Assembly (NCBI GenBank): GCA_014190275.1
Contig: BJGE01000020.1
Span: 1-33,073 of the forward strand
Length of the DNA stretch: 33,073 bases
Reading direction: 5' to 3'
Source: Actinomycetes bacterium
GTDB lineage: Bacteria > Actinomycetota > Actinomycetes > S36-B12
A model generated the notes under the pieces. That model did not search any database, was not told the origin of the DNA, and worked only from the letters and a program-made list of their open reading frames with translations. Shown here one piece after another: positions 13,429 through 24,803 of this stretch. How positions within the stretch are numbered: the stretch's first letter is position 1; each line of letters begins with the position of its first letter. The translations under genes were made by a program, and so were the position numbers.

Positions 13429-13501
13429 GGGGCTGTGGCGCAGTTGGTAGCGCGTCTCGTTCGCAATGAGAAGGCCAGGGGTTCGAATCCCCTCAGCTCC
13501 A
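13429..13501 (+). tRNA. tRNA-Ala (anticodon CGC)
   Basis: Cloverleaf: acceptor GGGGCTG/CAGCTCC, anticodon stem-loop TCTCG-TTCGCAA-TGAGA, T-arm AGGGGTTCGAATCCCCT. Confidence 0.95.
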
Positions 13502-13503
13502 CA

Positions 13504-13542
13504 AATATTGATGGCGGTCCCTTAGGGGCCGCCATCAATATT
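13504..13542. terminator. 18-bp stem / 3-nt loop hairpin between convergent tRNA-Ala and microprotein gene; likely bidirectional terminator
   Basis: AATATTGATGGCGGTCCC-TTA-GGGGCCGCCATCAATATT, fully paired with one G-T. Confidence 0.8.
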
Positions 13543-13565
13543 AATCAGGGGTAACGAGTGTTCAA

Positions 13566-13736
13566 CTACTCTTCACTACCCGCAAAGCACCAGCCACTGG
13601 CGCAATAACTTTTTTCACCTGAAGCACGCGTGTTGGCGCTGATGCCAGCGGCACCGGGGCGCACCCAATCGACTCCAAGGGCGAGTCGGTCAATGGGCAC
13701 GTTACTTGCGGGTGCGAGCACACTGGAACGAGGCAC
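13566..13736 (-). CDS. Orphan microprotein, 56 aa, copy A: MPRSSVLAPASNVPIDRLALGVDWVRPGAAGISANTRASGEKSYCASGWCFAGSEE
   Basis: GTG start with SD GGAGA 5 nt upstream; homologous to 24615-24803; missed by the ORF track because <60 aa. Confidence 0.75.
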   Translation of the reverse strand: MPRSSVLAPASNVPIDRLALGVDWVRPGAAGISANTRASGEKSYCASGWCFAGSEE

Positions 13737-24312: not shown

Positions 24313-24383
24313 TCCCGGGTCGTCTAGCGGCAGGACAGCGGACTTTGAATCCGTCAACGGTGGTTCGATCCCACCCCCGGGAG
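24313..24383 (+). tRNA. tRNA-Gln (anticodon TTG)
   Basis: Acceptor TCCCGGG/CCCGGGA, anticodon stem-loop GCGGA-CTTTGAA-TCCGT, T-arm GGTGGTTCGATCCCACC; near glmU as in other actinobacteria. Confidence 0.94.
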
Positions 24384-24614
24384 CTAATCAACCCCGGGGC
24401 CCCACTCCCGAGGCATTGTTAGTCGACCTTCCCCGCGTGCGGCACCGGGGGCAGGGGTGACGGGGAACCCGTTACTTTGTTCCTGGCCACTAGGTGGTGG
24501 CTTCTGGCTGCTGGGGTGTTCGGGTTCACGCTACGCAAACAACCGGCCCCGACGAAAAGCGGTCAGGGACCAGCAACAGGGTTTAAACACCCCACCTAAC
24601 GGTAGGGACCAGTT

Positions 24615-24803
24615 CTACTCTTCATTACCCTCAAAGCACATAAAGCAAGCTGGGTCTCTCCCCCCAGCGCAAGCAGGACCGTCGTAAGCGGGGTTTAGGG
24701 TGCCGCCGATACCGGCAACTCCAGGCCGGGCCGGGCCCACCCCGAGTGCGAGCCGATCGCAGGCCGCAGAACTAACAGGTGTATTCACTTCAAAACTTGG
24801 CAT
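24615..24803 (-). CDS. Orphan microprotein, 62 aa, copy B: MPSFEVNTPVSSAACDRLALGVGPARPGVAGIGGTLNPAYDGPACAGGRDPACFMCFEGNEE
   Basis: ATG start with SD AGGAG 6 nt upstream; homologous to 13566-13736; same position relative to a tRNA gene. Confidence 0.75.
   Translation of the reverse strand: MPSFEVNTPVSSAACDRLALGVGPARPGVAGIGGTLNPAYDGPACAGGRDPACFMCFEGNEE

Follow-up and report, generated by a model that had tools for sequence, protein, structure and literature searches.

The window, by which we mean the whole stretch of 33,073 nucleotides that was analysed, contains two short genes on the minus strand that encode related peptides. Gene A (13566..13736) encodes a predicted precursor peptide of 56 aa, with a GTG start and a TAG stop; this ORF had been proposed in an earlier sequence-only reading, and translation confirmed it, together with its good Shine-Dalgarno sequence (GGAG, 6 nt ahead of the GTG) and the strong hairpin after its stop. 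The hairpin (13504..13542), a probable bidirectional terminator, lies between gene A and a convergent tRNA-Ala gene on the plus strand (13429-13502). Gene B (24615..24803, minus strand) encodes a predicted precursor of 62 aa, with an ATG start and a TAG stop, and is followed by two hairpins of its own (24541..24611, minus strand); the same or similar 3' sequence stands behind many of the dispersed copies of the family described below. The A/B identity previously counted by eye, 18 of the first 32 residues, was borne out, as was the CF-G-EE ending common to both: their local alignment scores 106, against 23 +/- 4.6 (maximum 56) in 5000 shuffles and 48 for the runner-up among the 485 ORFs of the window. 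The neighbours are ordinary, being an NTP transferase, a GNAT protein and one unassigned ORF near A, and a fatty acid desaturase, a tRNA-Gln gene and a beta-helix protein near B.

Alignment with the family, which includes 101 full-length members, divides both peptides into three predicted parts, all on the minus strand. In A these are a leader of 39 aa (VPRSS...ANTRAS, 13620..13736) whose exact cleavage point is a prediction, a core GEKSYCASGWC (13587..13619) whose putative boundary follows from the position of the hypervariable block and the terminal Cys, and the follower FAGSEE (13569..13586), the conserved C-terminal block. In B they are a leader of 39 aa (MPSFEV...GGTLNPA, 24687..24803) and a core YDGPACAGGRDPACFMC (24636..24686), both with predicted boundaries, and the follower FEGNEE (24618..24635). 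The copy P0001 is among the more diverged of the family and lacks the usual TLNPS site, and thus may be decaying.

The two peptides had been taken for the only members of their family, which proved far too few. The window belongs to the 2.25-Mb genome of a freshwater (lake) member of the Nanopelagicales (G000), and a search of this genome with the longer peptide, B, found 29 places, 27 of them with E <1e-4; a profile built from 26 members found 29-30 copies. The homologue search without a length filter that the sequence-only reading had advised therefore succeeded, in this genome and across its genus, where the same profile finds 6-46 copies in each of ten genomes. Beyond the genus, at E<=0.001, it matches 6 of 75 further genomes of the taxonomic family; the 40 genomes sampled from the remaining families of the order gave no match. 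Copies occur as separate genes and as short tandem arrays of two to seven, and the counts are lower bounds because the arrays often stop at contig ends; some copies are broken, as in one on contig C67 with an in-frame TAG. The impression that the peptides belong to no known family held, since neither Pfam nor NCBIfam, nor PADLOC, has a curated family for them; moreover, no NCBIfam model, the curated models of cyanobactin precursors included, matched the 26 members at E<=10, and one query for viral relatives found none. All genomes compared are metagenome-assembled (MAGs), as are the named records that bear the family, including Candidatus Nanopelagicales from Lake Baikal. Contamination is unlikely, because ten genomes show the same pattern and ribosomal genes lie beside the maturation cluster presented below. 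Several MAG records titled Bifidobacterium breve (L060, L061, L062 and others) also carry the family and are probably misnamed.

The 101 full-length members share a conserved region of residues 1-38, a hypervariable centre and a conserved end, FEGNEE or a close variant. The leader carries the motif P......DRLALGV..VRPG, with an entropy mostly of 0-2 bits per position as opposed to about 3.7 in the core. The 101 members have 95 distinct cores, mostly of 10-17 residues, in which Gly, Ser, Ala, Cys and Tyr are abundant and charged residues sparse, and in 96 of the members the core ends in Cys; the flanking sites are mostly LNPS before the core and FEGNEE or FAGSEE after it. The leader/core layout suspected from A and B alone is thus supported by the relatives, but the variable part is the middle of the peptide and not its C-terminus: the Cys-containing end, overlooked as a conserved block, is the follower, placed after the last Cys of the core.

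The check for selection on the copies, also advised beforehand, pointed to constraint on the peptide. The dN/dS ratio is 0.37 in the leader and 0.23 in the follower, indicating purifying selection, and 1.5-1.6 when the leader is read in the wrong frames; since the constraint is confined to one frame, it is the peptide that is selected and not the DNA alone. For the core, dN/dS is not readable as selection, as its positions are saturated and were paired by length alone. These values bear on the idea that each repeat is a short MITE- or REP-like mobile element in which the ORF is incidental, as might be supposed from dispersed copies, many of which have common hairpin-bearing 3' flanks and several of which lie at contig ends. 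Such an element would not account for purifying selection in a single frame, for core lengths that change in multiples of three, for the conserved start, stop and Shine-Dalgarno sequence or for the tight co-occurrence with RiPP enzymes, and no common terminal repeats were noticed in the flanks inspected; we regard it as extremely improbable.

Two observations concern the surroundings of the copies. A (13429-13736) and B (24313-24803) each have a tRNA gene close by in convergent orientation, as do a few other copies; insertion linked to tRNA genes was considered and rejected, only 5 of about 26 copies, A and B included, being within ~0.6 kb of one. A sequence TTTTG...GTGTT stands ~70-90 nt before the start codon in 16 of 111 copies (background 0.3%) and could be a common promoter or regulator site; the pattern was hand-made and picked after looking, so that the figure is suggestive.

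No maturase is adjacent to A or B, as had been noted before, but a cluster of cyanobactin type lies elsewhere in the same genome. Enzymes of this kind are best known from cyanobacteria. The only YcaO protein of the genome is encoded on contig C34, where the genes beside it, recognised by eye, include those of EF-G and of the ribosomal proteins S7 and S12. In a survey of 69 relatives, a YcaO of 760-800 aa was present in all but two of the ten genus genomes; the exceptions are G002, where the only frame is truncated by the end of its contig, and G007 (57% complete), which has none. The C34 cluster comprises a LynD/TruD-like cyclodehydratase, a ThcOx/SagB oxidase, two PatA/PatG-family proteases, a sulfotransferase-PqqD fusion, two small ORFs (orf140 and orf264, which match no family) and MFS exporters, and this gene content is conserved across the genus. 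The cyclodehydratase reaches 249.5 bits against TIGR03604 (cut-off 219) and matches LynD, its best PDB match, over the full length (E 7e-147), and the oxidase matches PF22767 (ThcOx) and, as its best PDB match, CyaGox (2e-45). Against TIGR03895 (cut-off 421), protease 1 reaches 450.3 bits and a fragment of protease 2 634.8; their best PDB matches are PatA-type proteases (2e-60 and 5e-84), protease 1 matching both PatA and PatG and protease 2 PatA. PatG_C and PatG_D domains were detected in the cluster, PatG_C being uncommon in the phylum, with 4 of 397 genomes. No PatF was recognised among the cluster proteins scanned.

Some further features were observed at this and other loci. The sulfotransferase with its C-terminal PqqD-like domain (L139:10459-11718, on C34 of G000) is conserved in the genus and in G117 and was not found at the G012 or G021 loci; the fusion suggests leader-guided sulfation. 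A tandem pair of near-identical MFS exporter genes, one broken by a run of N, lies at L139:4473-8100. In G020 and G066, long YcaO proteins that by their length seemed to be the same enzyme were set aside, being only 32% identical and without linked PatA/PatG genes; G006 has a second long YcaO (L145, contig C137), also 32% identical to the cluster cyclodehydratase. A different pair of PatA/PatG-family proteases, scoring up to 685 bits, lies beside an MFS gene in G029 and G044 (L156, L157), genomes without this precursor family.

The distribution of the peptides follows that of the proteases. Among 85 genomes of the taxonomic family, 14 have both (counting G057, where they are split at contig ends), 66 have neither, two have precursors only (57% and 79% complete) and three have proteases only, with a Fisher p=2e-11 that is not that of independent events because the genomes are related. 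Moreover, precursors are linked to the cluster in related genera: one immediately ahead of a protease gene in G117, eight divergent ones around the cyclodehydratase in G012, at least four adjoining the proteases in G021, and others adjoining the cyclodehydratase in G038 and linked to the cluster in G123. In several precursors of G012 and G021 the core is preceded by APS and followed by SASDDE or FADDVE. The cluster of the window's own genome yielded no family member, and all known copies of this genome would therefore have to be processed in trans; we infer such processing from the co-occurrence and from the linkage in relatives. There is one maturation cluster per genome, and in this genus it is unlinked to most copies.

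Many RiPPs have a leader/core layout and cores rich in Cys, and a maturase of another class, a lanthipeptide synthetase, radical SAM or MNIO enzyme, might be imagined. Of the co-occurrences suggested for checking, that with YcaO was found, but profiles for LanC-like, SPASM and MNIO proteins detected nothing in the genome, which has only the one YcaO, making another class scarcely credible. A role for the unmodified peptides as secreted bacteriocins or signalling molecules is also very unlikely. They are small, with one gene per copy and terminators of their own, but by eye no signal peptide or classic export motif was recognised, and neither a conserved follower behind a variable core nor the linkage to PatA/PatG-type proteases would be expected of such peptides.

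Taken together, the sequence data indicate that A and B are cyanobactin-type RiPP precursors matured in trans by a shared cluster elsewhere in the genome, with a probability of about 0.88. We use the term cyanobactin-type, for a product that may be cyclic or linear, because the layout is the same but the canonical motifs and the PatG insert were not found, no curated precursor model matches and no PatF was recognised. In the proposed pathway, the leader motif would recruit the LynD/TruD-like YcaO cyclodehydratase, which would convert core Cys, and perhaps Ser/Thr, into azolines, some of which the ThcOx-like oxidase would turn into azoles. A PatA-like protease would cut after the [N/A]P[S/A] site ahead of the core, and the second PatA/PatG-family protease would cut after the terminal Cys, removing F(E/A)G.EE and perhaps ligating the two ends to close a ring. 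The sulfotransferase-PqqD protein might add a sulfate group, and the MFS proteins would export the peptide.

Within the same pathway the product could instead be linear, the second protease hydrolysing the follower with no macrocyclisation. In the alignment, the helical macrocyclisation insert of PatG, about 35 residues, appears to be absent from all protease 1 orthologues, which have a short loop there (7 residues at a site that spans 42 in PatG 4h6x); an AlphaFold2 model of this domain had a pLDDT of 43 and was discarded. The insert domain is described as shielding the cleavage site from water, and linear cyanobactins exist (PMC4663559). However, the insert varies in length and sequence among macrocyclases (PMC4663559), protease 1 keeps PatG-like CAFC and NWC segments, and a follower behind a C-terminal Cys is the usual layout of a macrocyclase substrate. 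We consider a linear product a real prospect, with a chance somewhat below one half.

Returning to the cyanobactin-type precursors and their shared cluster, genome comparison also bears on how the cores diversified. Several cores differ by zero or one nt between genomes, against 11-26 of 114 nt in the leaders ahead of them, for example 0/36 in the core as opposed to 16/114 in the leader, 0/27 to 20/114 and 0/45 to 11/114. The 3' flank travels with the core in some of these pairs; two pairs match in the core region alone, the flanks on either side being unrelated. Some singleton copies have kept their core between species. For 11 pairs taken together, the divergence of core plus follower is lower than that of the leaders (p=1.6e-9), a value that is overstated because the pairs were chosen for similar cores; the individual mosaics stand. 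Identical core DNA behind clearly different leaders means that cores move as cassettes, and we infer recombination with leader and follower as the homology. Core diversity would thus arise from duplication of whole units and from recombination placing existing cassettes behind other leaders.

More tentatively, as a proposal slightly short of an even bet, these genomes may hold a chromosome-wide combinatorial system in which a single cyanobactin-type enzyme set serves 30-46 mostly unlinked precursors, with conserved leaders and followers as homology arms and products, perhaps sulfated or linear azole peptides, that form a new cyanobactin-related class. If so, cassette swapping acts within and between species of lake Nanopelagicales, and core exchange becomes directly testable via genome comparison. 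Uncultured lake actinobacteria would then hold large unannotated libraries of modified peptides, whose short precursors, encoded at a distance from the enzymes, escape gene callers and cluster-based mining.

Regarding known systems, no paper on Nanopelagicales was found among open-licence papers. In another actinomycete, Saccharopolyspora sp. NFXS83, two strain-specific cyanobactin-like genes lie in a hybrid cluster (PMC10145562); the likeness is in the homologues of cyanobactin biosynthesis, whereas no dispersed precursor family is reported there (PMC10145562). The system resembles the cyanobactins (patellamide, trunkamide, aestuaramide) in its PatA/PatG-family proteases, LynD/TruD-like cyclodehydratase and ThcOx-like oxidase, and in precursors made of a leader, a hypervariable core with terminal Cys and an acidic follower. 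Cyanobactin precursors have a leader and a hypervariable core with two recognition sequences (PMC10885120; PMC4663559), with cleavage behind G(L/V)E(A/P)S and ahead of AYDG (PMC10885120), and according to a 2015 review their clusters were known in cyanobacteria only, with up to 10 precursors per cluster (PMC4663559). Here, in contrast, the hosts are planktonic Actinomycetota, about 30-46 precursor genes are mostly unlinked, RSII and RSIII are non-canonical, without G(L/V)E(A/P)S and AYDG, no PatF was recognised, the macrocyclisation insert appears to be missing and a sulfotransferase-PqqD fusion is added. The prochlorosins and synechococsins (ProcA/ProcM, SyncA/SyncM) offer the other parallel, one promiscuous enzyme acting on tens of genome-scattered precursors in an aquatic bacterium, with 29 and 79 precursors, respectively (PMC10783134). 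Theirs, however, is LanM lanthipeptide chemistry, with a Nif11-type leader, GG cleavage and no follower, and the genome studied here has no LanM/ProcM enzyme, lacking any LanC-like domain. If the combinatorial proposal is true, the prochlorosin strategy of serving many scattered substrates with one enzyme set would have a second, chemically distinct instance, in an aquatic phylum unrelated to the first, and this would suggest that open-water life favours the strategy.
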